Part shown: positions 5,469 through 19,169 of the stretch, piece after piece | How positions within the stretch are numbered: position 1 is the first letter of the stretch | Layout: each line of letters begins with the position of its first letter | DNA from: Luteimonas kalidii | GTDB lineage: Bacteria > Pseudomonadota > Gammaproteobacteria > Xanthomonadales > Xanthomonadaceae | DNA: 64,000 bases | Direction of reading: 5' to 3' | Assembly: GCF_029887935.1 (NCBI RefSeq) | Contig: NZ_JARXRO010000013.1 | Coordinates: 1 to 64,000 of the forward strand | Notes under the pieces: model-generated | What the model saw: the letters and a program-made list of their open reading frames with translations, nothing else | Databases searched by the model: none | Told to the model about the DNA's origin: nothing | Translations under genes and position numbers: made by a program

Positions 5469-6557
5469 TCAGGGCGTCGGCGACAGCGGCACCATCGGCA
5501 TCACGTCCACCGGCACCGTGGGATTGGCCTCGTCGTCGAGCAGGTACTCGGGCAACTCTTCCTCGTCCTGCTGGCGGCGATCGGCCTGGATCTGGTAGTT
5601 GCGGCGTTGCAGCCAGGCATCGCGCACCAGTGCGTACTCGTCGGACGCGCCTTCGCGCATCGCATCGATCGCGAACAGCTGGGTGCGCAGGTCCACCAGC
5701 TGCAGTCCCTGCAGGAAGAAGCGCGTACCGTCGTCCTCCACCTGGCGGATCGGCGACAGCGGGCCGTCGCCGACCAGGCCGAAGGTGTCGCGCAGCGTGC
5801 GCGGGCCGAACAGCGGCAGCTCGACGTAGCGCGAATTGGTCCAGCCCCAGACGCCTAGGGTCTGCCCGAAATCCTCGCTGCGGTTGGGGATGTTCGCGGC
5901 CGACGCCGGGTCGAACAGCCCACCGACGCCGAGCGTGGCGTTGAGCAGGAACCGGCCCAGCGACTGGCCGGCCTGCTTCGGCCGGCCCTGCAGCAGCGCG
6001 TTGAGCGCGCTCACCGGCTGGCCGAGGTTGTTGAAGAAGTTGCCCACGCCCAGCCGCACCGGACGCGGCACCACCTTGACGTAGGCGCGCGCCAGCGGCA
6101 CGGCGACGGTGCGGTCCACGGCGTTGTTGAAGCGGTGGACCTTGCGGTTCCAGTTCTCCCACGGATCGTACGCGGCGGGCAACTGGGCCGGGGCGGGCAG
6201 GGTGGGATCGGCGACCGGATCGTAGGGACCGGTGCCGTAGATCGCGGCGTAATCGAGTTCGGCCTGGGTCGGCGCGGCGCCGGGGGCCGGTGACTCGGGG
6301 GCTTGCGGTTGCGCCGATGCGTCGGCCGTCGTGGCCGCGGCGTCTGCGGGTGCGCTCGCCGCTGGACCGGGTGCGACGTCGGGCGTCGCGGATTCGCCAT
6401 CGGCAGCAGGATCGCCAGCGACGGTGGCGTCCGGCGCCGGCGCGATGGTCACGGGCGCCGGCGCGGCCTCGCGCACGCCGCCCCCGCCGGCGCAGGCGGC
6501 GAGCAACAGGGGCAGCAGCAACAGGACGATCGGGCGCAGGGGATTGGGCGGCGTCAT
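5469..6557 (-). CDS. mlaA: MlaA (VacJ) outer-membrane lipoprotein
   Basis: This is the outer-membrane component of the Mla system, which pulls mislocalised phospholipids from the outer leaflet. The 362-residue precursor has a lipobox (LLLAAC, Cys about 20) followed by an Ala/Pro-rich linker of about 90 residues, longer than in E. coli MlaA. The MlaA domain then starts at YDPWENWNRKVHRFNNAVDR, with RLGVGNFFNNLGQP, GVGGLFDPAS and a characteristic DTFGLVGDG. An earlier in-frame ATG exists at 6593, but the second ATG places the lipoprotein signal correctly. It is last in the mla operon, 32 bases after mlaB. Confidence 0.93.
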   Translation of the reverse strand: MTPPNPLRPIVLLLLPLLLAACAGGGGVREAAPAPVTIAPAPDATVAGDPAADGESATPDVAPGPAASAPADAAATTADASAQPQAPESPAPGAAPTQAELDYAAIYGTGPYDPVADPTLPAPAQLPAAYDPWENWNRKVHRFNNAVDRTVAVPLARAYVKVVPRPVRLGVGNFFNNLGQPVSALNALLQGRPKQAGQSLGRFLLNATLGVGGLFDPASAANIPNRSEDFGQTLGVWGWTNSRYVELPLFGPRTLRDTFGLVGDGPLSPIRQVEDDGTRFFLQGLQLVDLRTQLFAIDAMREGASDEYALVRDAWLQRRNYQIQADRRQQDEEELPEYLLDDEANPTVPVDVMPMVPLSPTP

Positions 6558-6589
6558 CGTGGCGGTCCGTCGGACGTCGTGCGCAGGCG

Positions 6590-6880
6590 TCATGCCTGTG
6601 CGAAGGACAGGGCGGGGGAGAGGCGATAGGCGCGGCGCAGACCGTCGAGACCGGGTGGATCACCGGCCACGGAGACGCCGCCGTTACGTTGCGCGAGTTC
6701 GACCAGCAGCGCAAGGCCGGCGCTGTCCACCGACGACACCGCCACCAGATCGAAGCGTTGCGCGCCCGGCAATAGCCGCAGCGCTTCCGGCCACAGCGCG
6801 GCCACGGCCGCGCGTTCGAGCGCGCCCGCAAAGGCGAGCGCGTCGCCGGTGCGCGTCACCGTGGCCGGCGTCGGACTCAC
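6590..6880 (-). CDS. mlaB: MlaB STAS-domain protein
   Basis: The 96-residue protein is a single STAS domain: the strand-helix core ALAFAGALERAAVAALWPEAL, then FDLVAVSSVDSAGLALLVELAQRNGG. The SSVDSAG loop matches the position where STAS proteins carry a conserved Ser/Asp. MlaB binds the ATPase MlaF in the cytoplasm and is needed for assembly and activity of the MlaFEDB complex. The start is GTG at 6880, overlapping the mlaC stop by four bases (GTGA), so it is translationally coupled. Confidence 0.88.
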   Translation of the reverse strand: MSPTPATVTRTGDALAFAGALERAAVAALWPEALRLLPGAQRFDLVAVSSVDSAGLALLVELAQRNGGVSVAGDPPGLDGLRRAYRLSPALSFAQA

Positions 6881-7548
6881 TCGGTACCCGCGTCCGCGGA
6901 CAGCTGGCCGGCGCGCAGTTCCTTCGCCACCTGCGCGATCGACTTGCGCTGCAGCTCACTGTCGAACTGCTGGCGGAAGGTCTGCACGAACGACACGCCC
7001 TCGACCATCACGTCGAACACGCGCCAGCCGCTGCCGGCGCGGCGCATCAGGTAGTCGACCGGAATCGGTTCGCCGCCCTGGCGGGTCAGTTCGCTCGACA
7101 CCTTCACTCCGAGCCCGCGCGGCAGCGCCGTCTCGGACTTGATCCGCACCTGCAGGCGGGTGTTGAAGTCGATCAGCGACGAGCCGTAGCGGCGCATCAG
7201 GTTCTCGGCGAGCGCATCGCCGAAGGCCTTCACGTCGGCGTCCGAGGCGCCGCGGCCATGGCGGCCGAGCACCTGGCGCGCGGCGTAGTCGCGGTCGAAC
7301 ATCGTGTCGAACTCGCCGCTGATGAAGCGCTGCAGCGCGGCGCGGTCGCGGGTGAACTCGGTGCGGCGCGATTCGAGCGTCTCCAGCACGCGGCGGGTGT
7401 TCTCCAGCACCAATTCGCTGGGCGAACCCTGCATGGCGGCGGGCGCCGGCGCGGCGGCGGGCTGGGCCTGCGCGAAGGCGAGCGCGGGCGCGCCGGCCGC
7501 CAGGGTGGCGGCGAGCGCGAGGACGAGGAACTTGCGGGGGTTGCTCAT
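6877..7548 (-). CDS. mlaC: MlaC periplasmic phospholipid-binding protein
   Basis: MlaC shuttles phospholipid between the outer-membrane MlaA complex and the inner-membrane MlaFEDB complex. The 223-residue precursor has a clear signal peptide (about 1-27, cleavage near AFAQA), a short Ala/Pro stretch and the Tol-Tol_Ttg2 fold. Recognisable pieces are FDTMFDRDYAARQVLGRHGR, RYGSSLIDF and a closing VSFVQTFRQQFDSELQR. It overlaps mlaD by four bases at its 5' end and mlaB at its 3' end. Confidence 0.92.
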   Translation of the reverse strand: MSNPRKFLVLALAATLAAGAPALAFAQAQPAAAPAPAAMQGSPSELVLENTRRVLETLESRRTEFTRDRAALQRFISGEFDTMFDRDYAARQVLGRHGRGASDADVKAFGDALAENLMRRYGSSLIDFNTRLQVRIKSETALPRGLGVKVSSELTRQGGEPIPVDYLMRRAGSGWRVFDVMVEGVSFVQTFRQQFDSELQRKSIAQVAKELRAGQLSADAGTE

Positions 7549-8126
7549 GGGGTCGTTCCTTGTTCGGGAGCGGGAATGGCGGGAGGCGCGGGTTCGCCCT
7601 GCGGGGCGGTCTCGCCGGAGTCGTCCGGCGTCTGCCCGCCGGGTGCGGTGGCGGCGGGCGCATCATCGCCGCCGCCGCTGAACATGTATTTGCCGACCAT
7701 CTGCATCAGGTCGACCGCCGGCGTGGTGAACACGATCTCCTCGCCCGGCTTGAGCACTTCCATGTCGCCGCCCACCTGCAGGCCGACGTAGCTCTCGCCG
7801 AGCAGGCCGCCGGTGAGGATGCCGGCCGAGGTGTCGATCGGGATCTCGGCGAAGCGGCCGTCGATGGCCAGGGTGACGATGGAATCGAACTTCACCGGAT
7901 CCAGGTCGATGCCGGACACGCGGCCGACGGTGACGCCGCCGATCTTGACCGGTGCGTTCGGGCGCAGCTGGCCGATCTGGGTGAAGCGCGCGGTCAGCGC
8001 GTAGCTGTCGCGGGCCATGCCGAAGCGGCCGTTGGTGGAGGCGATCGCCAGCACCAGCAGCGAGCCCAGCGCCAGCACGAGGAAGGCGCCGACGGCGAAT
8101 TCGAGGCGGGGGCCACGGGTGCTCAT
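7545..8126 (-). CDS. mlaD: MlaD MCE-domain lipid transporter subunit
   Basis: A 193-residue inner-membrane-anchored MCE protein. The N-terminus MSTRGPRLEFAVGAFLVLALGSLLVLAIAST is one membrane helix. The MCE domain follows (YALTARFTQIGQLRPNAPVKIGGVTVGRVSGI), then the C-terminal helix LMQMVGKYMFSGG. A Pro/Ala/Asp-rich tail of about 40 residues is probably disordered. MlaD hexamers form the hydrophobic channel that sits on MlaE. The ATG at 8126 is chosen because an in-frame extension upstream is Arg-rich and unlike the family. Confidence 0.92.
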   Translation of the reverse strand: MSTRGPRLEFAVGAFLVLALGSLLVLAIASTNGRFGMARDSYALTARFTQIGQLRPNAPVKIGGVTVGRVSGIDLDPVKFDSIVTLAIDGRFAEIPIDTSAGILTGGLLGESYVGLQVGGDMEVLKPGEEIVFTTPAVDLMQMVGKYMFSGGGDDAPAATAPGGQTPDDSGETAPQGEPAPPAIPAPEQGTTP

Positions 8127-8393
8127 GCGGAAAACTCCAGGCGGGCGCGAGGAACGGCCCTGAGGTGAGGGGGGCTGCGCCGGGCATCCCGATCGCGGTC
8201 GGCGAGGCCTGGCGGGTTCACGGGACCGGCGAATCCGGCGCTGGGTGCGGGATCGCGCCTGCCGACCGGACCGCACGCGCCGTCGGCGCGGCCATCGGAA
8301 CCCGTACGACGCCGGCGCGCGTCGCGACGGTCGCGGGAGAATCGTGTGGGGGCGTGGGCGGGCATTATCCAGTCACTCGTCTGAAGGCCGGCA
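8127..8393 (-). other. 267-bp gap inside the mla operon
   Basis: There is no convincing gene between mlaE and mlaD, although these genes are normally tightly packed. The stretch contains a GC-rich hairpin (CGCGCC-GTC-GGCGCG, 8275-8290) and no recognisable promoter. It may hold a secondary promoter or an RNA structure that tunes the ratio between permease and MCE subunit. A degraded mlaD 5' extension in the same frame is also possible. Confidence 0.4.
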
Positions 8394-9143
8394 TCACCGG
8401 AACAGGAACGCCGACAGCACGAAGTTGAACATCAGCACCAGCAGCGAGGCGTTCACCACCGCGCGCGTGGTCGCCACCGAGGTGCCCTCGATGGTCGGCT
8501 CGGCGTGGAAGCCCACGTACGAGGCCACCAGCGCGGCGGTGCCGCCGAACACCGCGGCCTTGACGAAGGCGGGCACGAAATCGCTGTGGAAATCGACCGC
8601 GTCCTTCATCGTCTGCCAGAACGTGCCGTTGTCGATGCCCAGCACCTGCACCGCCTGGAACCAGCTGGCGGCGATGGCGAAGCTGGCGAAGAAGCCGACC
8701 AGCAGCGGCACGGTGAGCACCGCTGCCCAGAAACGCGGCGCCACTGCCTTGGCCACCGGGTCGATCGCCATCAGCCCGAGCGCGGTGATCTGGTCGGTGG
8801 CGCGCATCAGGCCCAGCTCGGCGGCGATCGAGCTGCCGGCGCGGCCGACGAACAGCAGCGCGGTCAGCACCGGCGCCAGTTCCCGGTACAGGCCCAGGCC
8901 GATCAGCACGCTGACCTGGTTGCTTGCGCCGTAGGTCTCCAGCGCGCGGAAGCCCAGCAGGGTCAGCGACAGGCCGACGAAGGCGCCGCCGACCGCGATG
9001 ATCGGCAGCGAGCGCGCGCCGACCTTGTAGATCTCGCGCACCAGCTCGGCGAGGAAGTCCGCCGTCGGCTTCGAGGCGCGCAGCACCGAAAGCGAGAACA
9101 GCCCGGCGCGGCCGACGGAGCGCAGGGCACTGGCCAGTCCCAT
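8394..9143 (-). CDS. mlaE: MlaE phospholipid ABC permease
   Basis: A 249-residue permease with the N-terminal elbow helix followed by about five transmembrane helices. The family signature is clear: LPIIAVGGAFVGLSLTLLGF, ELAPVLTALLFVGRAGSSIAAELGLMRATDQITALGLMAIDP, and a closing TTRAVVNASLLVLMFNFVLSAFLF. MlaE forms the dimeric membrane core of the Mla importer or exporter. Its ATG overlaps the mlaF stop by one base (TGATG), so translation is coupled. Confidence 0.93.
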   Translation of the reverse strand: MGLASALRSVGRAGLFSLSVLRASKPTADFLAELVREIYKVGARSLPIIAVGGAFVGLSLTLLGFRALETYGASNQVSVLIGLGLYRELAPVLTALLFVGRAGSSIAAELGLMRATDQITALGLMAIDPVAKAVAPRFWAAVLTVPLLVGFFASFAIAASWFQAVQVLGIDNGTFWQTMKDAVDFHSDFVPAFVKAAVFGGTAALVASYVGFHAEPTIEGTSVATTRAVVNASLLVLMFNFVLSAFLFR

Positions 9144-9940
9144 CACGCGGCCTCCGTGCGTCGTGCGGTGTCGAAGGCGATCGGACCGTCCGGTTCGCCG
9201 CGCAGGAACTGGCGCACCAGCGGATCGTCGCTGGCCTCGAGTTCGGACGGGGAGCCGGCGAACACGATCCGTCCGTTGGCGATCACCACCGCGCGATCGG
9301 CGATCGGCAGGGTCTCGTGCACGTGGTGGGTGACGATGATGCTGGTCAGGCCGAGGCGGTCGTTGAGTTCGGAGATCAGGTTGGTGATCACGCCCGAGGC
9401 GATCGGGTCCAGGCCGGTCAGCGGTTCGTCGTAGAGCATCAGCGGCGGGTCCAGCGCGATCGCCCGGGCCAGCGCGACGCGCCGCGCCATGCCGCCCGAC
9501 AATTCGCGCGGGTACAGCTCGCCCGCCGAGCGCAGGCCCACCGCATGCAGCTTCATCTCCACCAGGCGGTCGATCACCGCGCGCGGCAGCCGGGTGTGTG
9601 CGCGCAGCGGCAGGGCGATGTTCTCGGCGCTGGTCAGGTCGGTGAGCAGGCCGTTGCCCTGCAGCAGCACGCCGATCGACTTGCGCAGCTCGAGCAGGTC
9701 GCGGGTGCGCTGCGGGACGGCTTGGCCGAACACCTCGACCCGGCCGGCGGCCGGCACCAGTTCGCCGGTCAGCGCGGCCAGCAGGGTCGACTTGCCGCTG
9801 CCCGACGGGCCCAGCACGGCGGTCACACTGCCGCGCGGCACGGCCAGGTCGATGCCGTCCAGGATCGTCCGACCGCCGCGGTCCAGGCGGACCCCGGTCA
9901 GGCGCACGGCGGGGGCGTCGTTGTCGGCGGCGTCGGGCAT
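9143..9940 (-). CDS. mlaF: MlaF phospholipid ABC ATPase
   Basis: An ABC ATPase of 265 residues. Walker A is LGPSGSGKSTLL, the Q-loop LLQGNGLL, the signature RELSGGMARRVALARAIA, Walker B LMLYDEPLTGLDP and the switch His TH in IIVTHHVHE. It powers phospholipid transport by the MlaFEDB complex from the cytoplasmic side. A GTG at 9991 would add 17 Pro-rich residues; neither start has a strong ribosome-binding site, and the ATG at 9940 matches the usual family length better. It is first in the operon, and the promoter should lie in 9941-10197. Confidence 0.93.
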   Translation of the reverse strand: MPDAADNDAPAVRLTGVRLDRGGRTILDGIDLAVPRGSVTAVLGPSGSGKSTLLAALTGELVPAAGRVEVFGQAVPQRTRDLLELRKSIGVLLQGNGLLTDLTSAENIALPLRAHTRLPRAVIDRLVEMKLHAVGLRSAGELYPRELSGGMARRVALARAIALDPPLMLYDEPLTGLDPIASGVITNLISELNDRLGLTSIIVTHHVHETLPIADRAVVIANGRIVFAGSPSELEASDDPLVRQFLRGEPDGPIAFDTARRTEAA

Positions 9941-10197
9941 GGGCGGGGGTGGGGAACTTGCAGCGACCGGCGGGGGCCGGCGAAGCGTCACAGGATCGCG
10001 AATGGCGGCTGAACCTCGCCGGAGTCACTGAACCGGAGGGTACAGGAAATCAAGGTCCGGCCATGTGCCATCGGTGGGGTCGGAAGAGCAGGGATCGGGT
10101 CGGCAACGTGCCTGCAGACTCCGGTCCCCGAAGCCCGGCAGACCACTCAACGTGGAAGGCCTTGAAAACGGGGGAAGGACAGCACCGGTACCTCGAT

Positions 10198-11442
10198 TCA
10201 TTGCGCTGCGGCCGCCTCCGGCATCACCCCGGTGTACTGGGCGCGGGGACGGATCAGGCGGTCCAGGTCCTGCTGTTCCTGGGCGTGGGCCAGCCAGCCG
10301 GCCAGGCGACCGGCGGCGAACATCGCCAGCGCCGGTGCCGCCGACAGGCCGTGCACGTAGCAGATCGCGGCGAGCATGCCATCGATGTTGGGCAGCCGGC
10401 CGCTGGTGTCCGCGGCGGCGGCCAGCACCGCCTCGAGCTGGCGCATGCGCGGCTCGCCGTCGCGCCGGTGGCGCAGCATCGACAGCACCTCGGCGCCACG
10501 CGGGTCGCCGTCCGGATACAGCACGTGGTGGAAGCCGGGCAGTTCGTCGCCACGGCGCCAGCGCTCGGCGATGAAGCCGGCAGGCGAGGCCGCAGCCGCC
10601 GCATCGGCGATCAGGGCATAGGCGCGCGCGGTGGCGCCGCCGTGGCGGGGGCCCGAGAGCGCGGCTAGCCCGGCGCAGACGGTGGCATGCAGGTGTGCGC
10701 CCGTGGACGCGACCACGCGCGCGGCGAAGGCGGATACGTTGAGCTCGTGGTCGGCGCACAACACCAGGGCCGCGCGCACCAGGTCCGCGAACGCGGCGTC
10801 GCCGGGGCGCCAGGCGTCGGCCAGCAGCCGGTGCACCGGGCGCGCGTCCGGGGTGCCGGCCACAAGCAAAGCGGCGTTCTGGCGCAGCAGGGTGGCAGCC
10901 ACCCGGCGTCGGCTGGCGGCCGCGGTGCTGAGCGAATCGCGCTGGTCCAGCGCCAGCAGCGGGATCGCCGCCATCGCGCGCGCCAGTGGCGGCAGCGCGG
11001 CGTCGCCGGCGAGTGCGGCCACCGGCGCCGGCCAGCCATCGGCCGGCGGTGGATCGAACGGATCCTGCCCGCCGCAGTCCCACAGCAGCCGCGCCGCGTC
11101 CTCGAGCGTCGCCCCTTCGCGCACCATCGCCACCGCGGCGCGGCCGCGGTAATAGGGGCTGTCCGGCCGGATCAGCGAGATCGCGGTTTCCATCACCGGC
11201 AGGCCGCGGTCCAGGCTCTGCGCGGCCCCGCGGGCGGCGCCGCGGCCGGCTTTCTTGCGCTGGGCCAGGCGCTCGACGTCGCGGCGCAGGTACACCCGGC
11301 TGCGGTGGTCGGGGCCCGGCCGGGACTCGACCAGGCCGCGGCTGACATAGGCGTACAGGGTGGCCGGGCTGATCCCGAGCAGGGCGCACACCTCGCGGGC
11401 GGGCATCAGATCGTCGGCGGCGGCAGGTCGTGTCGGGTTCAC
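10198..11442 (-). CDS. HTH-citrate synthase fusion protein (putative regulator or enzyme)
   Basis: The 414-residue product has two parts. Residues about 13-62 form a MerR/excisionase-type helix-turn-helix (MPAREVCALLGISPATLYAYVSRGLV, then SRVYLRRDVERLAQ). Residues about 80-405 are a citrate synthase fold with the active-site residues in place: H232 in DHELN, H267 in GPRHGGA, H306 in GFHHVLY and D354 in PNID. The gene is divergent from prpB, and the intervening DNA carries TTGAT dyads. It could be a citrate or methylcitrate synthase that also binds DNA, or a regulator that senses oxaloacetate, acyl-CoA or methylcitrate; both ideas are inference. The GTG at 11442 is preferred over an in-frame GTG at 11514, which would swallow the dyads. 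Confidence 0.8.
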   Translation of the reverse strand: MNPTRPAAADDLMPAREVCALLGISPATLYAYVSRGLVESRPGPDHRSRVYLRRDVERLAQRKKAGRGAARGAAQSLDRGLPVMETAISLIRPDSPYYRGRAAVAMVREGATLEDAARLLWDCGGQDPFDPPPADGWPAPVAALAGDAALPPLARAMAAIPLLALDQRDSLSTAAASRRRVAATLLRQNAALLVAGTPDARPVHRLLADAWRPGDAAFADLVRAALVLCADHELNVSAFAARVVASTGAHLHATVCAGLAALSGPRHGGATARAYALIADAAAAASPAGFIAERWRRGDELPGFHHVLYPDGDPRGAEVLSMLRHRRDGEPRMRQLEAVLAAAADTSGRLPNIDGMLAAICYVHGLSAAPALAMFAAGRLAGWLAHAQEQQDLDRLIRPRAQYTGVMPEAAAAQ

Positions 11443-11450
11443 GGCGACAG

Positions 11451-11478
11451 CTTGATTCTTGCGATCAAGATTGATCAA
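11451..11478. promoter_or_regulatory. TTGAT dyad cluster between HTH-citrate synthase gene and prpB
   Basis: CTTGATTCTTGCGATCAAG (11451-11469) is a perfect 6-bp inverted repeat with a 7-base centre. It is followed two bases on by the 8-bp palindrome TTGATCAA (11471-11478). Four TTGAT/ATCAA half-sites thus lie within 28 bp of the divergent intergenic region, between the two start codons. This is the expected place for an operator controlling both the fusion gene and prpB. Which protein binds is inferred: the adjacent HTH-citrate synthase is the obvious candidate. Confidence 0.55.
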
Positions 11479-11540
11479 CCTCGAGAAGGGTGCCACATTG
11501 CCGGCGTCCCGCACATCCCCATCGCTGTCCCAGGCCCGCC

Positions 11541-12431
11541 ATGTCTTCGACCTCCGTTTCCCCCGGCACGCGGTTCCGCGCCGCGCTCGCCGCCGAATCG
11601 CCGTTGCAGGTGATCGGCGCGATCAACGCCAACCACGCCCTGCTCGCGCAGCGCGCCGGCTTCCGCGCGCTGTACCTGTCGGGCGGCGGCGTCGCGGCCG
11701 GCTCGCTGGGCCTGCCCGACCTGGGCATCAACACCCTCGAGGACGTGCTGGTCGACACCCGCCGCATCACCGACGTGTGCGAGCTGCCGCTGCTGGTCGA
11801 CATCGACACCGGCTTCGGCCCCAGCGCGTTCAACATCGCGCGCACGGTGAAGTCGCTGATCAAGGCCGGCGCCGCCGCCTGCCACATCGAGGACCAGGTC
11901 GGCGCCAAGCGCTGCGGTCACCGCCCCGGCAAGGAAATCGTCGCGCAGGACGAGATGGTCGACCGGGTCCGGGCCGCCGTGGACGCCAGGACCGATCCCG
12001 GGTTCTTCCTGATCGCGCGCACCGACGCCATCGCCGTGGACGGCGTGGACGCGGCGATCGAACGCGCCGTCGCCTGCGTGGAGGCCGGCGCCGACGGCAT
12101 CTTCGCCGAGGCCGCCTACGACCTGGAGACCTACCGGCGCTTCGTCGACGCGGTGAAGGTGCCGGTGCTGGCCAACATCACCGAGTTCGGCAGGACCCCG
12201 CTGTTCTCGCGCGACGAGCTGGCCTCGGCCGGCGTGGCGATCCAGCTGTTCCCGCTGTCGGCGTTCCGTGCCGCCAACAAGGCGGCCGAGGCGGTGTACG
12301 CGGCGGTGCGCCGCGACGGCCACCAGCAGGCCGTGCTCGACACCATGCAGACCCGCGAGGAACTGTACGAGCGCATCGGCTACCACGATTTCGAGCGCAG
12401 GCTCGACGCGCTGGCCGCGGCGAAACGCTGA
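11541..12431 (+). CDS. prpB: 2-methylisocitrate lyase PrpB
   Basis: PrpB splits 2-methylisocitrate to pyruvate and succinate, the last step of the methylcitrate cycle. The 296-residue protein is a PEP-mutase/isocitrate-lyase TIM barrel. Motifs are [40 protein letters not shown] with the catalytic Cys, and [10 protein letters not shown]. Length and motifs match authentic PrpB rather than isocitrate lyase. It opens the operon, and prpC follows after 195 bases that include a GC-rich hairpin-forming stretch. Confidence 0.95.
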
Positions 12432-12626: not shown

Positions 12627-13784
12627 ATGAGCCAAGCCACGCCCGCCACGCCGTTCAAGCCGAAGAAGTCGGTGGCCCTGTCCGGCACCGCCGCCGGCAA
12701 CACCGCGCTGTGCACGGTGGGTCGCACCGGCAACGACCTGGCCTACCGCGGCTACGACATCCTCGCGTTCGCGCAGACCGCCGAGTTCGAGGAGGTCGCC
12801 TACCTGCTGGTGCACGGCAAGCTGCCCAATGCGGCCGAGCTGCGCGGCTACAAGGCCAAGCTGAAGTCGCTGCGCGGACTGCCGGCCGCGGTCAAGGCCG
12901 CGCTGGAGGAGCTGCCTGCCTCGGCGCACCCGATGGACGTGATGCGCACCGGCGTGTCGGTGCTGGGCTGCGTGCTGCCGGAATCGGTGGACCACAACCA
13001 TCCCGGCGCGCGCGACATCGCCGACCGGCTGATGGCCTCGCTCGGCTCGATGCTGCTGTACTGGTATCACTGGAGCCACAACGGCCGTGTCATCGACGTC
13101 GAGACCGACGACGACTCGATCGGCGGCCATTTCCTGCACCTGCTGCACGGCCATCCGCCGAAGGACAGCTGGGTGCGGGCGATGCACACCTCGCTGATCC
13201 TGTACGCCGAGCACGAATTCAACGCCTCCACGTTCGCCGGCCGCGTCATCGCCGGCACCGGCAGCGACATGTACAGCGCGATCTGCGGCGCGATCGGCGC
13301 GCTGCGCGGGCCCAAGCACGGCGGTGCCAACGAGGTCGCGTTCGAGATCCAGAAACGCTACGACACGCCGGACGAGGCCGAGGCCGATATCCGCGCGCGG
13401 GTCGAGCGCAAGGAAGTGGTGATCGGCTTCGGCCATCCGGTGTACACCGTGTCGGATCCGCGCAACCAGGTGATCAAGCAGGTGGCGAAGGAGCTGTCGG
13501 ACGAGGCCGGCAGCACGAAGATGTACGACATCGCAGAGCGCCTGGAAACGGTGATGGCGGACGTCAAGAAGATGTTCCCCAACCTCGACTGGTTCAGCGC
13601 GGTGAGCTACCACATGATGGGCGTGCCCACGGCGATGTTCACGCCGCTGTTCGTGATCTCGCGCACCAGCGGCTGGAGCGCGCACGTGATCGAGCAGCGC
13701 ATCGACGGCAAGATCATCCGCCCGAGCGCGACCTACACCGGTCCGGAGGACCTGGAGTACGTGCCGATCGACAGGCGCGACTGA
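12627..13784 (+). CDS. prpC: 2-methylcitrate synthase PrpC
   Basis: PrpC condenses propionyl-CoA with oxaloacetate to 2-methylcitrate. The 385-residue citrate-synthase fold carries all catalytic motifs: [38 protein letters not shown] and [12 protein letters not shown], followed by the CoA/oxaloacetate-binding [24 protein letters not shown] precedes the ATG, a good ribosome-binding site. Downstream, 13802-13825 contains a hairpin (CCTTC-TCCCGC/GCGGGGG-AAGG) before acnD. Confidence 0.95.
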
Positions 13785-13931: not shown

Positions 13932-16547
13932 ATGAACAGCCAGCACCGCAAATCCCTTCCCGGCACCACGCTCGACTGGTTCGACGCGCGCGAAGCGGTC
14001 GAGGCGGTGCGGCCCGGCGCCTGGGCGGCGCTGCCGTACACCTTCCGCGTGCACGCCGAGAACATCGTGCGTCGCGCCGAGCCTGCGCGCATCGACGACT
14101 ATCTCCTGCAGCTGGTCGAACGCCGCCGCGACCTCGACTTTCCCTGGTTCCCCGCGCGCGTGGTCTGCCACGACATCCTCGGCCAGACCGCGCTGGTCGA
14201 CCTGGCCGGCCTGCGCGACGCGATCGCGGACCAGGGCGGCGACCCGGCGCAGGTGAACCCGGTGGTGCCGGTGCAGCTGATCGTCGACCACTCGCTGGCC
14301 GTGGAGTGCGGCGGTTCCGATCCGCAGGCCTTCGCCCGCAATCGCACCATCGAGGACCGCCGCAACGCCGACCGCTTCCACTTCATCGACTGGACCAAGC
14401 AGGCGTTCCGCAACGTCGACGTGATCCCGCCCGGCAACGGGATCATGCACCAGATCAACCTGGAGAAGATGTCGCCGGTGGTCTACGTCCAGGACGGCGT
14501 GGCCTTCCCCGACACCTGCGTCGGCACCGATTCGCACACCCCGCACGTCGACGCGCTGGGCGTGATCGCGGTCGGCGTCGGCGGGCTCGAGGCGGAGAAC
14601 GTGATGCTCGGCCGCGCCTCGTGGATGCGCACGCCGGAGATGGTCGGTGTCGAACTGTCGGGCCGTCCGGGGCCCGGCATCACCGCCACCGACGTGGTGC
14701 TGGCGCTGACCGAGTTCCTGCGCCAGTCGAAGGTGGTCGGCGCCTACCTCGAGTTCCGCGGGCCGGGGGCGGCCGCGCTGACCGTCGGCGACCGCGCCAC
14801 GATCTCGAACATGGCGCCCGAGTACGGCGCCACCGCGGCGATGTTCTTCATCGACGGCAACACGCTCGACTACCTGCGCCTGACCGGACGCACCGACGAG
14901 CAGGTGGCGCTGGTGGAGACCTACGCCAGGGCGGCGGGCCTGTGGGCCGACGACCTGGCCGACGCGCAGTACGGGCGCACGCTGCATTTCGACCTGTCCA
15001 GCGTGGTCCGCAACATGGCCGGGCCGTCGAATCCGCATCGGCGCCTGCCGACCAGCGCACTGGCCGAACGTGGCGTCGCCGACGAAGCCAAGCTGCTCGC
15101 AGGAAAGGCCGAGGAAGCAGGCGGCCGGATGCCCGACGGCGCGGTGATCATCGCCGCGATCACCAGCTGCACCAACACCTCCAACCCGCGCAACGTGATC
15201 GCCGCCGGACTGCTGGCGCGCAACGCGCTGGCAAAGGGCCTGGTGCGCAAGCCGTGGGTCAAGACCTCGCTCGCGCCGGGCTCGAAGGCGGTGGAGCTGT
15301 ACCTGCGCGAGGCCGGACTGCTGGACGACCTGGAAGCGCTGGGCTTCGGCATCGTCGGCTTCGCCTGCACCACCTGCAACGGCATGAGCGGCGCGCTGGA
15401 TCCGGCCATCCAGCAGGAGATCGTCGACCGCGACCTGTACGCGGTCGCGGTGCTCAGCGGCAACCGCAACTTCGACGGCCGCATCCACCCGCATGCCAAG
15501 CAGGCCTTCCTCGCCTCGCCGCCGCTGGTGATCGCCTACGCCATCGCCGGCACGGTCCGCTTCGACATCGAGAAGGACGCGCTGGGCGTGGATGCCGACG
15601 GCCATCCGGTCACGCTCAAGGACCTGTGGCCCAGCGACGAGGAAGTCGACGCCGTGGTCAAGGCCAGCGTGAAGCCCGAGCAGTACCGCGCCGTGTACGG
15701 GCCGATGTTCCAGCTCAAGGTCGAGTCCGGCGAAGCGGTGAGTCCGCTCTACGACTGGCGTCCGCAGTCCACCTACATCCGCCGCCCGCCGTACTGGGAA
15801 GGCGCGCTGGCCGGCGAGCGCACGCTGACCGGCATGCGTCCGCTGGCGGTGCTGGGCGACAACATCACCACCGACCACCTGTCGCCGTCCAACGCGATCC
15901 AGCGTTCGAGCGCGGCGGGCGAGTACCTCGCGTCGATGGGCGTGCCGGAAGAGGACTTCAACTCCTACGCCACCCACCGCGGCGACCACCTCACCGCGCA
16001 GCGCGCGACCTTCGCCAATCCGAAGCTGCTCAACGAGATGGTGCGCGACGCCGGCGGCAGCGTGCGCCAGGGTTCGCTGGCGCGGATCGAACCCGAGGGC
16101 ACGGTGGTGCGCATGTGGGAGGCGATCGAGACCTACCTGCAGCGCAGCCAGCCGCTGGTGATCATCGCCGGCGCCGACTACGGCCAGGGCAGCTCGCGCG
16201 ACTGGGCGGCCAAGGGCGTGCGCCTGGCGGGCGTGGAAGCGATCGTGGCCGAGGGCTTCGAGCGCATCCACCGCACCAACCTGATCGGCATGGGCGTGCT
16301 GCCGCTGGAATTCGCGCCGGGCACCACGCGGCTCACCCTCGGCATCGACGGCACCGAGACGTACGACGTCCGCGGCACGCGCACGCCCGGGGCGACGCTG
16401 ACGCTGGCGATCCACCGCCGCGACGGTTCGACCACCGAGGTCCCGGTGACCTGCCGCCTGGATTCGGACGAGGAGGTCTCGATCTACGAGGCCGGCGGCG
16501 TGCTCCAGCGCTTCGCCCAGGATTTCCTCGCCCAGGCCAACGCCTAG
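13932..16547 (+). CDS. acnD: Fe/S-dependent 2-methylcitrate dehydratase AcnD
   Basis: AcnD dehydrates 2-methylcitrate to 2-methyl-aconitate and is used in place of PrpD where PrpF is also present. The 871-residue aconitase-type enzyme has cluster ligands C413 in SCTNTSNPRN and C479/C482 in ACTTCNG, plus GTDSHTPHVDALGVIAVGVGGLEAE and the C-terminal swivel domain with DYGQGSSRDWAAKG. The ATG at 13932 is preceded by a weak ribosome-binding site. prpF lies 1.4 kb downstream, separated by two unrelated genes. Confidence 0.95.
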   Translation: MNSQHRKSLPGTTLDWFDAREAVEAVRPGAWAALPYTFRVHAENIVRRAEPARIDDYLLQLVERRRDLDFPWFPARVVCHDILGQTALVDLAGLRDAIADQGGDPAQVNPVVPVQLIVDHSLAVECGGSDPQAFARNRTIEDRRNADRFHFIDWTKQAFRNVDVIPPGNGIMHQINLEKMSPVVYVQDGVAFPDTCVGTDSHTPHVDALGVIAVGVGGLEAENVMLGRASWMRTPEMVGVELSGRPGPGITATDVVLALTEFLRQSKVVGAYLEFRGPGAAALTVGDRATISNMAPEYGATAAMFFIDGNTLDYLRLTGRTDEQVALVETYARAAGLWADDLADAQYGRTLHFDLSSVVRNMAGPSNPHRRLPTSALAERGVADEAKLLAGKAEEAGGRMPDGAVIIAAITSCTNTSNPRNVIAAGLLARNALAKGLVRKPWVKTSLAPGSKAVELYLREAGLLDDLEALGFGIVGFACTTCNGMSGALDPAIQQEIVDRDLYAVAVLSGNRNFDGRIHPHAKQAFLASPPLVIAYAIAGTVRFDIEKDALGVDADGHPVTLKDLWPSDEEVDAVVKASVKPEQYRAVYGPMFQLKVESGEAVSPLYDWRPQSTYIRRPPYWEGALAGERTLTGMRPLAVLGDNITTDHLSPSNAIQRSSAAGEYLASMGVPEEDFNSYATHRGDHLTAQRATFANPKLLNEMVRDAGGSVRQGSLARIEPEGTVVRMWEAIETYLQRSQPLVIIAGADYGQGSSRDWAAKGVRLAGVEAIVAEGFERIHRTNLIGMGVLPLEFAPGTTRLTLGIDGTETYDVRGTRTPGATLTLAIHRRDGSTTEVPVTCRLDSDEEVSIYEAGGVLQRFAQDFLAQANA

Positions 16548-16565
16548 CCCGTGGGTCGCCGGTAC

Positions 16566-16802
16566 GTAGCCCGGATAAGCGCAGCGCATCCGGGGCTCCG
16601 CGCATGCGTCCGCCGCCGCCGCATGCCGGATCGCGCCGCCGTCGCCCAGCTCCGTAGCCCGGATAAGCGCGCAGCGCATCCGGGGACCGCGCGCCGCCCG
16701 CAGGACATGCGAAACGCCGCAAGCAGGCGATCCACGCGTCGGAGTGGGCGATGCATCCGGATTGCCAGGAGTTCCCGGATGCGCTGCGCTTATCCGGGCG
16801 AC
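16566..16802. repeat. Three GTAG-type REP palindromes after acnD
   Basis: Copies lie at 16566-16595 (+), 16654-16685 (+) and 16774-16802 (-). Each has GTAG followed by CCCGGATAAGCG, a small loop and CGCATCCGGGG. The third has CGAC in place of CTAC at its head. The 367-bp gap 16548-16914 between acnD and the SRPBCC gene holds only these repeats and no gene, and it may weaken read-through from acnD into the following genes. Confidence 0.85.
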
Positions 16803-16914
16803 GCGGGCGGCATGCCGATACGAGCGGCAGGGCGCCGGGCCGCCGCCGCGTGGATGTCGAACGCGGGCTCGGCGGTTCGTCGTGCAGGCACACCCAACCA
16901 CCCGGAGACCGCGC

Positions 16915-17394
16915 ATGACCGATTCCAACGCCACCCCGGCCACCGCCACCGGCACCGTCCGCCTGCACCGCGTGCTGCGCGCGCCGCCCGAGCGCGTGTA
17001 CCGCGCCTTCATCGACGCCGCGGCCTTGTGCAAGTGGCTGCCGCCGCACGGCTTCACCGGCACCATGCACGCGTTCGACCCGCGCGTGGGCGGCGGCTAC
17101 CACATGTCGTTCACCAACTTCGGCACCGGCGCCAGCCATGCCTTCCGCGCCACCTACCTGGAACTGGTGCCTGGGCAGCGCATTCGCCACACCGATACCT
17201 TCGACGCGCCGGGACCGGCGGGCGAGATGCAGGTCACGGTGGAACTGGAGGAGTCCATCTGCGGCACCTCGCTACGCATCGTGCAGGAAGGCATCCCGCC
17301 AGAGATTCCGGCCGACTTCTGCTACCTCGGCTGGCAGGAATCACTGGAACTGCTGGCGAAGCTTGTGGAGCCGGAGATTCCGGATGGCGCCTAG
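16915..17394 (+). CDS. SRPBCC (AHSA1-type) family protein
   Basis: The 159-residue protein has the START/Bet v 1-like fold of AHSA1/polyketide-cyclase relatives. It opens VRLHRVLRAPPERVYRAFIDAAALCKWLPPHGFT; the middle has GGGYHMSFTNFGTG and TYLELVPGQRIRHTDTF; it closes with a GWQESLELLAKLVE helix. These proteins bind small hydrophobic ligands or act as co-chaperone modules; the ligand is unknown. It is not a standard prp gene. Its stop (TAG) is followed in the same frame by GAT ATG, the start of the next gene. Confidence 0.85.
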   Translation: MTDSNATPATATGTVRLHRVLRAPPERVYRAFIDAAALCKWLPPHGFTGTMHAFDPRVGGGYHMSFTNFGTGASHAFRATYLELVPGQRIRHTDTFDAPGPAGEMQVTVELEESICGTSLRIVQEGIPPEIPADFCYLGWQESLELLAKLVEPEIPDGA

Positions 17395-17397
17395 GAT

Positions 17398-17982
17398 ATG
17401 AAGCGGGGCCGGCTGATGCTGATGGCGCGTCCACCGTCGACAACGGCGGTGGCCATGAGCGCAGTGCCGGTGATGGCCGGATGGCCTGCTATTGCGCGGG
17501 ATGCCCACTGGCCGCATTACAACCTGCATCAGAGCTTGACCCTCGATCACGCGCCTGCGGACGAACATGCGCTATTGCGCGCGCTGTACAGGATCGATGC
17601 CTTCGCCTTCGACATGCTGTTCAATCGCATGACCGGTGATGATGCGGCAGGTGGACATTGGACGCTCCACGCGAAGGGGATGCCGCGCGGGTTCGCCACG
17701 CTGCTGACCGATGTTTGGGGTGCGCTTGCCGCCGAGGGCATCCAGGATTGTTTCGGACATCGACCGCACGTGACACTGTGTTATCGAGCGCCGCGGATGC
17801 CTGGCGGCACATACTGGTTACCAGACCCCATTCCATGGCGTGTCGATGCGATCGAACTCGTCATGGTCGAGACACATCCGTACCGCTACGTCACGATTGC
17901 GCGGCGTCCGCTTGTCGCGCCAGTGCAGAGCGATCTCTTCCCCGGAACCCCATCCGTCCATCCCGAGCACGCCGCGAAATGA
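17398..17982 (+). CDS. 2H phosphoesterase / LigT-like RNA ligase family protein
   Basis: The 194-residue protein has the two His motifs of the 2H superfamily: HQSLTL (about 44-49) and HVTLCY (about 124-129), spaced as in LigT/2'-5' RNA ligases and cyclic phosphodiesterases. The N-terminal strand LMLMARPPSTTAVAM fits the fold. Likely substrates are 2',3'-cyclic or 2'-5' linked nucleotides, which is inference. It starts three bases after the SRPBCC stop, and its TGA overlaps the prpF ATG (ATGA), so it is coupled to prpF. Codon choice is visibly less GC-biased than in prpF. Confidence 0.75.
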   Translation: MKRGRLMLMARPPSTTAVAMSAVPVMAGWPAIARDAHWPHYNLHQSLTLDHAPADEHALLRALYRIDAFAFDMLFNRMTGDDAAGGHWTLHAKGMPRGFATLLTDVWGALAAEGIQDCFGHRPHVTLCYRAPRMPGGTYWLPDPIPWRVDAIELVMVETHPYRYVTIARRPLVAPVQSDLFPGTPSVHPEHAAK

Positions 17983-19169
17983 CCCACCGCCCCCAGCTCC
18001 GCATTCCCGCCACCTACATGCGTGGCGGCACGTCCAAGGGCGTGTTCTTCCGTCTGGAGGACCTGCCCGTGGCTGCGCGCAGCCACGGCGCGGCGCGTGA
18101 CGCGCTGCTGCTGCGGGTGATCGGCTCGCCTGATCCCTACGGCAAGCACACCGACGGCATGGGCGGGGCGACCTCGAGCACCAGCAAGTGCGTGATCGTC
18201 GCGCCGTCCACGCGGCCAGGCCACGACGTCGACTATCTCTACGGCCAGGTCTCGATCGACAGCGCCTTCGTCGACTGGAGCGGCAACTGCGGCAACCTGT
18301 CCTCGGCGGTGGGTCCGTTCGCGATTGCGCACGGCATGCTCGATCCCGCCAGGGTGCCGGCCGACGGCACCGCCACGGTGCGCATCTGGCAGGCCAACAT
18401 CGGCAAGACCATCGTCGCGCATGTGCCCATGGTCCAGGGCCAGGTGCAGGAGACCGGCGATTTCGAGCTCGACGGCGTGACCTTCCCGGCTGCCGAGATC
18501 GTGCTGGAGTTCCTCGATCCGTCCGACGACGGCGAAGACGGCGGTGCGATGTTCCCGACCGGCCGCATGGTCGACACGCTCGAGGTGCCTGGCCTCGGCG
18601 CGCTGCAGGCGACGCTGATCAGCGCCGGCATTCCCACGGTGTTCGTGGATGCGGCCGACATCGGCTTCGATGGCACCGAGCTGCAGCCGGCGATCAACGA
18701 CACCCCGACCGCGCTCGCGAAACTCGAAGCGATCCGCATTGCCGGTGCGCTGCGCATGGGGCTGATCGCGCACGCCGACGAGGCGTTGCGGCGCCAGCAC
18801 ACGCCCAAGGTCGCCTTCGTCGCACCGCCCGCGGCCTATGTGGCTTCGAGCGGCAAGGCGATCGCCGCGGGCGACATCGACCTCAACGTGCGCGCGATGT
18901 CGATGGGCAAGCTGCATCACGCGATGATGGGCACCGCGTCGGTCGCGATCGCCACCGCGGCCGCGGTGCCGGGCACGCTGGTGAACCTGGCCGCCGGCGG
19001 CGGCACGCGCGATGCGGTGCGCTTCGGGCATCCGTCGGGCACCCTGCGGGTGGGCGCGGCGGTGTCGCAGGTCGACGGCCGCTGGACGGTGACGCGCGCG
19101 GTCATGTCGCGATCGGCGCGGGTGCTGATGGAGGGCGCGGTGCGGGTGCCTGCGGAGACGCTGGGCTGA
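17979..19169 (+). CDS. prpF: 2-methylaconitate cis-trans isomerase PrpF
   Basis: PrpF isomerises the AcnD product so that aconitase can hydrate it to 2-methylisocitrate, completing the AcnD route. The 396-residue protein matches the family length. Motifs include PATYMRGGTSKGVFF at the N-terminus, GMGGATSSTSKCVIV, VDWSGNCGNLSSAVGPFAI with the conserved Cys, and RAMSMGKLHHAMMGT. The start overlaps the preceding 2H gene by four bases. Confidence 0.95.
   Translation: MTHRPQLRIPATYMRGGTSKGVFFRLEDLPVAARSHGAARDALLLRVIGSPDPYGKHTDGMGGATSSTSKCVIVAPSTRPGHDVDYLYGQVSIDSAFVDWSGNCGNLSSAVGPFAIAHGMLDPARVPADGTATVRIWQANIGKTIVAHVPMVQGQVQETGDFELDGVTFPAAEIVLEFLDPSDDGEDGGAMFPTGRMVDTLEVPGLGALQATLISAGIPTVFVDAADIGFDGTELQPAINDTPTALAKLEAIRIAGALRMGLIAHADEALRRQHTPKVAFVAPPAAYVASSGKAIAAGDIDLNVRAMSMGKLHHAMMGTASVAIATAAAVPGTLVNLAAGGGTRDAVRFGHPSGTLRVGAAVSQVDGRWTVTRAVMSRSARVLMEGAVRVPAETLG

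Follow-up and report, generated by a model that had tools for sequence, protein, structure and literature searches.

A helix-turn-helix–citrate synthase fusion as a probable regulator of the divergent methylcitrate operon in Luteimonas kalidii

Why does a citrate synthase-like gene with a DNA-binding domain stand back to back with the methylcitrate operon? The question is raised by a stretch of 64,000 nucleotides from Luteimonas kalidii (contig NZ_JARXRO010000013.1, positions 1 to 64,000, referred to as the window), in which a fusion of a helix-turn-helix (HTH) domain and a citrate synthase (CS) domain, here called HTH-CS, is divergent from prpB. Judging from the sequence comparisons, HTH-CS is likely to be an autoregulated, ligand-controlled one-component transcription regulator with a CS-fold sensor, probably a repressor, and it very likely regulates the divergent operon through a putative operator at 11452-11478. 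The gene and its domains, with residues numbered in amino acids (aa), are:

10198-11442, minus strand: HTH-citrate synthase gene (HTH-CS), GTG start, 414 aa
11254-11403, minus strand: MerR/HTH_17-type DNA-binding domain, aa 14-63, core motif TLYAYVSRG, above the Pfam cut-offs of HTH_17 and MerR_1
10243-11208, minus strand: CS domain, aa 79-400, Pfam PF00285, with H232, H267, H306, R315, D354, R379 and R398

The N-terminus of HTH-CS scored 30.2 bits against HTH_17 (cut-off 27) and 24.0 bits against MerR_1 (cut-off 21.6), while the older Pfam MerR model gave 23.4 bits, which is under its cut-off of 28.2. The Citrate_synt profile (PF00285) was matched with 188 bits (cut-off 27) from position 3 to 357 of 357, and thus over its full length. 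The seven residues listed above align with the corresponding residues of the window prpC, and we take them to have the catalytic and carboxylate-binding roles familiar from CS biochemistry. An earlier note on this DNA had claimed that a MerR-like domain is joined to a complete CS fold with its His/His/Asp, and both the Pfam matches and the prpC alignment confirm this. The HTH core is one of the most conserved blocks in the alignments across the family. HTH-CS stayed under the cut-off of every listed NCBIfam model for CS, methylcitrate synthase and citryl-CoA lyase (best score 137.4 against 332 bits), and the PrpC models NF009006 (109 against 550 bits) and TIGR01800 (131.8 against 421.3 bits) were likewise not matched. 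An AlphaFold2 model built from a 51-sequence alignment (predicted local distance difference test score 79.9, predicted template modelling score 0.77) had the methylcitrate synthase 3hwk_A as its closest fold in the PDB, with template modelling scores of 0.64 and 0.71 and a root mean square deviation of 5.1. Among 44 distinct PDB sequences matching the HTH-CS profile at E≤1e-30, none reached before position 50, and hence no PDB structure of such a fusion was seen at this threshold.

The intergenic region between HTH-CS and prpB contains an operator-like element and a predicted promoter:

11452-11478, plus strand: putative operator TTGAT-N7-ATCAA-GA-TTGAT(CAA), three half-sites and one overlapping
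11471-11476, plus strand: predicted prpB -35 hexamer TTGATC, identical to the third half-site, TTGATC in 30 of 30 family loci
11491-11499, plus strand: predicted extended -10 element of prpB, TGC-CACATT, 17 bp past the -35, TGNNA[CG]ATT in 30 of 30 family loci

The half-sites are TTGAT at 11452-11456, ATCAA at 11464-11468, TTGAT at 11471-11475 and ATCAA at 11474-11478. The earlier note had counted four TTGAT half-sites within 28 bp facing prpB; the half-sites are indeed present, but as three separate copies and one that overlaps the third, in a run of 27 bp, and not as four equal dyads. This run lies 9 bp from the HTH-CS start codon and 62 bp before the prpB ATG at 11541. With its promoter-like geometry, it covers positions from about -54 to -31 of the predicted prpB start site, with its centre at about -42. 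Inspection by eye gave no clear candidate for a promoter of the HTH-CS gene itself. The 3.96 Mb genome has a single exact copy of ATCAAGATTGATC and none of its reversed control, and the looser form TTGAT-N0-12-ATCAA was found at seven places in the genome, as compared to one for the control; the position of the operator near HTH-CS is therefore not due to chance. Elsewhere in this genome, a tandem pair of TTGATATCAA palindromes, 11 bp apart, was observed at G000:C15:516006-516026.

We searched 198 genomes from 54 genera of the family for HTH-CS (E≤1e-40) and for the operator motif. HTH-CS was present in 44 genomes (10 of the 54 genera) and ATCAAGATTGATC in 50, comprising all 44 genomes with HTH-CS and 6 of the 154 without it, as compared to zero for the reversed control. 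In the 44 HTH-CS genomes the motif precedes the HTH-CS match by 13-48 bp and always has the same orientation, and no copy was found away from the gene; the only extra copy lies in the same intergenic stretch of genome G087, where two operator cores (G087:C1:2516824-2517054) are found 26 and 244 bp from the HTH-CS match. The six genomes with the motif but without the gene contain nine sites, around which no HTH-CS open reading frame (ORF) was found in the approximately 3 kb fetched. When scored over the 19 fixed positions of the operator, these nine sites reached 13-15, so that at most three of the seven fixed positions beyond the ATCAAGATTGATC 13-mer are kept. The 30 family loci that were fetched carry TTGAT-N7-ATCAA-GATTGATC or nearly so (17-19 of 19), and prpB is divergent from HTH-CS in all 30.

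The same picture was obtained from named records, taken as the best 80 of 537 relatives and thus a close rather than a random set, which overlaps with the genomes of the 30 family loci. These records are from Luteimonas, Pseudoxanthomonas, Stenotrophomonas, Xanthomonas, Lysobacter or unclassified Lysobacteraceae/Lysobacterales, and include two metagenome bins labelled just Proteobacteria and Gammaproteobacteria. prpB was divergent from HTH-CS in 80 of 80 loci, and the operator scored 17-19 of 19 in each. The same dyads, which the earlier note had proposed to look for in relatives, thus track HTH-CS (44/44 family genomes; 80/80 named-record loci). Upstream of prpB in 20 family genomes without HTH-CS, the best operator score was 11 of 19, or 12 on the opposite strand.

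These data also bear on whether the half-sites belong to another regulator, for example of the FNR/CRP-type. The FNR box is TTGAT-N4-ATCAA, so that its half-site letters agree with those seen here, and two N4 palindromes resembling FNR boxes are present elsewhere in the genome (G000:C6:26567 and G000:C17:135647). However, the half-sites are spaced by 7 bp here and by 6 or another number in some relatives, a third half-site is present, and the element follows HTH-CS and was not seen above prpB in the 20 genomes without it. An FNR box was for these reasons rejected as the main explanation, and we consider ownership by such a regulator extremely improbable.

If HTH-CS controls the methylcitrate genes, the question arises of what does so in the family genomes that lack it. 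PrpR, called by TIGR02329 at E≤1e-100, was identified in 22 of the 198 genomes, none of which is among the 44 with HTH-CS (hypergeometric probability 0.003, which ignores phylogeny); the window genome has no match at this threshold. In seven of the 22 PrpR genomes the positions of both PrpR and prpB were listed, and in five of these seven the genes adjoin, with PrpR divergent from prpB and 202-250 bp between the matches (G017, G053, G094, G140, G195). Among the 20 prpB loci without HTH-CS, PrpR was seen as a divergent ORF of 530-553 aa at three (L165, L167, L170), and at the remaining loci there was either no ORF or a different one, on one strand or the other, which by eye was prpE-like or unrelated. 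Both kinds of prpB locus are present in one genus (g29). Since the two genes do not co-occur in this sample, PrpR occupies the same slot by prpB in five of the seven genomes, and the operator is missing from the 20 loci without HTH-CS, it looks as if HTH-CS replaces PrpR in part of the family. According to the passages available from PMC12153269, PrpR of X. citri represses prp via a palindrome in the prpB promoter, and propionate still induced a prp reporter without PrpR. In the available part of a review that cites unpublished data, deletion of prpR in X. oryzae lowers prpBC (PMC8657755), and a 2022 paper citing a survey from 2012 (Suvorova 2012) states, in the part available, that all analysed Xanthomonadales use PrpR (PMC9765439).

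We also searched for relatives outside the family. With the family profile, 4 of 369 genomes in the class sample matched at E≤1e-50 (three from the family itself and one from the sister family), and 104 of 299 genomes in the phylum sample matched at E≤1e-30, of which 33 start within the first 8 profile positions and hence include the HTH. With a broader profile at E≤1e-60, matches were obtained in 15 of 240 genomes from the order of genome G741, presumably Burkholderiales given the position of Caballeronia and Comamonas proteins among its HTH-CS in the tree, and in 25 of 230 genomes from the class of genome G685, one of the 25 being without the HTH part. This class is Alphaproteobacteria, as the match in G1220 has the coordinates of that in a Niveispirillum record.

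A survey of residues was based on 80 HTH-CS proteins, comprising 72 distinct sequences from the searches (that of the window included) and 8 added family members. H232, H267, H306 and an acidic residue at position 354 (D or E) are intact in 64 proteins and broken in 16. Individually, H232 is kept in 77, H267 in 68, H306 in 74 and D354 in 69 proteins (E in 9), as compared to 80 for R315, 79 for R398 and 78 for R379, and in the HTH to 80 for Y30 and R35 and 79 for V33 and S34. By these counts, the DNA-binding core and the presumed carboxylate residues outlast the catalytic ones. In a tree that kept the HTH columns and had just ten non-HTH-CS rows, all 80 HTH-CS proteins fall on one side of a branch with 100/100 support, opposite ten plain CS. 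A further group with 100/100 support unites ten proteins that lack H267, of which nine come from the order of G741 and one is from Caballeronia.

The operator extends beyond the order. An alignment of 51 dereplicated rows gives the element as ATTGATT-N5-AATCAA-[G/T]-ATTGA[C/T], with a final block TTGAC/T, and we interpret it as a conserved element of three half-sites, the third of which coincides with the -35 predicted for the divergent promoter. In the relatives, matches to a -10-like hexamer peak 17 bp past the last block (mean 2.43 of 6; the remaining spacings between 12 and 22 give means of 1.04-1.98). At least 14 of the 19 fixed positions were matched in 61 of 69 loci outside the order, as compared to none of the 69 gene bodies, none of the 69 reversed regions and 28 of 6900 Markov shuffles; at a threshold of at least 13 the counts were 65, 1, 1 and 139, respectively. 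The element is kept there whatever the neighbour, be it a plain CS, a CoA-transferase, an MFS transporter, a 2-hydroxyacid dehydrogenase, a methyltransferase or TctC. The ten members of the clade without H267 were scored as the best of six spacers, which lifts chance scores too (shuffle maxima 11-13); seven of them reach 16-19 at a spacer of 5 or 6, and the other three score 17 (L188, spacer 10), 14 (L184, spacer 10) and 9 (L186). Two Deinococcota plasmids score 16 of 19 with a spacer of 6, with shuffle maxima of 13 and 15.

Two explanations that treat HTH-CS as an enzyme can be weighed against these results. According to one, it is an ordinary second (methyl)citrate synthase whose HTH is decorative and whose palindrome arose by chance. 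Annotated records do label the relatives citrate synthase, citrate synthase family protein or citrate/2-methylcitrate synthase, but conservation is higher in the HTH core than at the catalytic residues and the operator is tied to HTH-CS across genomes and in the two Deinococcota records, so that we regard this explanation as highly improbable. According to the other, HTH-CS is a trigger enzyme, i.e. a working (methyl)citrate synthase that also regulates the operon, with turnover setting the occupancy of the operator. The presumed active-site residues are invariant in sets of 17 and 51 aligned copies, and the catalytic set is intact in most of the 80 proteins surveyed. However, the same operon already contains prpC, a methylcitrate synthase above its cut-off, and several branches have lost catalytic residues, most of them with the operator kept. 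According to the available text of PMC7083601, CitB of C. crescentus complemented E. coli gltA and the CS-like CitC (CCNA_03758, numbered next to citB) did not. The likeness of CitB and CitC to a pair of CS and HTH-CS extends only to their adjacent locus numbers; should CitC be an HTH-CS, its failure to complement would agree with a role as regulator. On balance, a trigger enzyme appears unlikely.

The reading that we prefer is thus that of a regulator derived from an enzyme. CS enzymes are dimers or hexamers, and in an oligomer of HTH-CS the HTH domains would sit on the TTGAT/ATCAA half-sites of the operator (11452-11478). The bound protein would most likely keep both the prpB promoter and its own promoter off, since the operator covers the prpB -35 and its upstream flank and ends 9 bp before the HTH-CS start codon. 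A metabolite of the methylcitrate pathway filling the CS pocket would then release both promoters. That the ligand sits in this pocket seems fairly probable, and the conserved carboxylate pocket suggests an organic acid. The likeliest candidates would be 2-methylcitrate, or propionyl-CoA together with oxaloacetate; 2-methylcitrate in particular is a tentative choice, at slightly under an even chance.

Blocking of both promoters by one bound protein would be the simplest mechanism, and a repressor is somewhat favoured over an activator. As an alternative, HTH-CS could be a ligand-dependent class II activator, which bound at about -42 would recruit RNA polymerase to a weak prpB promoter. PrpR of Salmonella has been reported to activate with 2-methylcitrate. 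The -10 elements of the relatives are poor, as judged from the mean at the 17 bp spacing, and the location of the operator relative to the predicted start site suits an activator. Nevertheless, a -35 of TTGAC or TTGAT with a 17 bp spacer seems to need no activator, and an operator that ends so close to the HTH-CS start codon is in a placement typical of autorepression. We thus consider activation possible, at roughly one chance in three.

Like the operator position, several other observations weigh against our reading. The consensus underlying the 19 scored positions was derived from Lysobacterales sites, and the 69 upstream regions outside the order include close relatives and are not independent. 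Eight of these 69 loci have fewer than 14 matches. No operator was seen upstream of HTH-CS at L129, L213, L186 and L229, and the scores of L226, L227 and L228 (14, 11 and 15) do not exceed their shuffle maxima (14, 14 and 15). Within the family, prpB was found in all 198 genomes at E≤0.001 (192 above the cut-off) and HTH-CS in only 44, so that the pathway does not always come with HTH-CS. In two PrpR genomes of one genus (G022, G067), PrpR is located about 3.5 kb from prpB and does not adjoin it. Lastly, the catalytic set is intact in all 51 aligned Lysobacterales-type copies, which also fits a working enzyme.

Is HTH-CS, then, a regulator of the methylcitrate pathway alone? We examined the neighbours with a script that sought divergent ORFs only and called one in 71 loci, for which reason same-strand upstream genes cannot be counted. 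The divergent ORF resembles a plain CS in 39 of the 71 loci. Of the 31 other divergent ORFs outside the window, 20 were searched against Pfam, which identified CoA-transferase III at six loci (L122, L147, L148, L174, L211, L188), methyltransferases at three (L208, L177, L178), and an MFS transporter annotated gudP (L149), a 2-hydroxyacid dehydrogenase (L132), an aconitase (L038), a thiamine pyrophosphate enzyme (L150), TctC (L181) and NMT1 (L179). Less telling neighbours were a cation efflux protein (L129), DUF2332 (L200), an S9 peptidase (L176) and a TonB plug (L185), and the ORF at L187 had no Pfam family. In the sister family, represented by G561, HTH-CS faces acnD-prpF, and the 16 kb read contain no match to prpB, and none to prpC except HTH-CS itself. 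On two Deinococcus plasmids (L224, L225) the gene that it faces carries the annotation pyruvate carboxyltransferase, a name that points to a further family of acyl-CoA/oxoacid enzymes. A restriction of HTH-CS to prp was rejected, as the divergent neighbours of the relatives are many and varied. The idea in the earlier note of an enzyme-derived regulator facing the methylcitrate operon has good support from the co-occurrence of gene and operator, from the lack of PrpR in genomes with HTH-CS and from the loss of catalytic residues with the HTH kept, but such an arrangement is not peculiar to prp.

Two further observations concern these neighbourhoods. The plain citrate synthases that are paired with HTH-CS (L120-L146) carry Glu in place of the catalytic Asp found in HTH-CS and prpC. 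At L150 and L227, on a Caballeronia and an Acidovorax plasmid, HTH-CS is located near aromatic-ring dioxygenase genes, and the Caballeronia copy is without the catalytic His267; these two copies perhaps regulate aromatic catabolism.

A broader and rather speculative scenario, which we consider doubtful, is that one MerR-type HTH-CS fusion founded a so far unrecognised regulator family in alpha-, beta- and gammaproteobacteria and Deinococcota, with the same operator and changing targets. In such a family, the catalytically intact members would be flux sensors, with operator occupancy reporting whether the condensation of an acyl-CoA with an oxoacid can proceed, and the others would be pure acid sensors for other pathways.

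Several known systems resemble HTH-CS in part. PrpR of Salmonella and Xanthomonas, a regulator of the sigma54/Fis-type, is found in the same slot divergent from prpB in five of the seven genomes discussed above, but belongs to a different family with a different sensor. MerR regulators share the N-terminal HTH, while in HTH-CS the CS domain replaces their small effector domain. MerR operators lie inside a promoter spacer of 19-20 bp, and a coiled-coil dimerisation helix follows the HTH. In contrast, the predicted spacer at the HTH-CS target is 17 bp, and the operator overlaps the -35 and extends upstream of it. After the HTH, the AlphaFold2 model shows helices at 53-65 and 69-78, followed by low confidence at 76-85; no long coiled-coil helix is seen, in a stretch that is modelled with low confidence. 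In MocR/GabR-type regulators, ROK proteins (Mlc/NagC), BirA, PutA and NadR, a DNA-binding domain is fused to an enzyme or an enzyme-derived fold that senses a pathway metabolite, these folds being an aminotransferase, a sugar kinase, a biotin ligase, a proline dehydrogenase and NAD-pathway enzymes. HTH-CS likewise combines an HTH with an enzyme fold, is divergent from its supposed target operon and has a conserved operator-like element, as in regulators of the MocR and ROK kind. With CS and 2-methylcitrate synthases (PF00285; PrpC, CitA) it shares the fold and the active-site residues, and it differs from them by its N-terminal HTH, its NCBIfam scores below the cut-offs and its separate side of the tree.

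CitA of Caulobacter is a CS protein that controls cell behaviour apart from catalysis, but it is a GltA-type enzyme with 65% identity to E. coli GltA, unlike HTH-CS (PMC7083601, available text); the main text of that paper contains no mention of helix-turn-helix or HTH. Searches of open-licence literature found no paper on an HTH-citrate synthase regulator, and an earlier prediction in Suvorova 2012 (J Bacteriol), which compares propionate regulation across proteobacteria, is possible. The main texts of PMC5343134 and PMC3840689 do not mention propionate, PrpQ or citrate synthase, and that of PMC5045206 does not mention propionate, PrpQ or citrate. Enzyme folds turned into HTH-coupled sensors are already known (MocR, ROK, BirA), and a family based on CS was not found in the literature searched. 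If our reading is correct, regulators make up many of the genes now labelled citrate synthase, an error that misleads annotation and metabolic models, and a fold from central metabolism joins the short list of enzymes turned sensors. It would also explain propionate control in xanthomonads without PrpR and offer a ready-made biosensor module, with a predicted operator, for citrate-like or acyl-CoA metabolites. The loss of catalytic residues within the family provides a natural series for how an enzyme becomes a sensor.

The operon divergent from HTH-CS consists of prpB-prpC-acnD-prpF, each above its equivalog cut-off:

11541-12431, plus strand: prpB, methylisocitrate lyase, likely target (TIGR02317, 416.2 bits, cut-off 354.4)
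12627-13784, plus strand: prpC, 2-methylcitrate synthase, likely target (NF009006, 714.9 bits, cut-off 550)
13932-16547, plus strand: acnD, Fe/S 2-methylisocitrate dehydratase, likely target (TIGR02333, 1696.6 bits, cut-off 1419.85; start inferred by eye)
17946-19169, plus strand: prpF, 2-methylaconitate isomerase (TIGR02334, 722.1 bits, cut-off 440.55; start approximate)

The gap between acnD and prpF contains repeats resembling repetitive extragenic palindromic elements at 16565-16803. They include the direct repeats CGTAGCCCGGATAAGCGC and GCGCAGCGCATCCGGGG, 17 and 18 nt long, and an inverted pair of 30 nt with 97% complementarity. Two ORFs between the same genes (16744-17982) were judged by eye to be SRPBCC/AHSA1-like and 2'-5' RNA ligase-like. 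On the other side, adjoining HTH-CS, the minus strand at 5469-9991 carries a set of ORFs that by eye resembles an Mla lipid-transport system (ATPase, permease, MlaD-, MlaC- and MlaA/VacJ-like).

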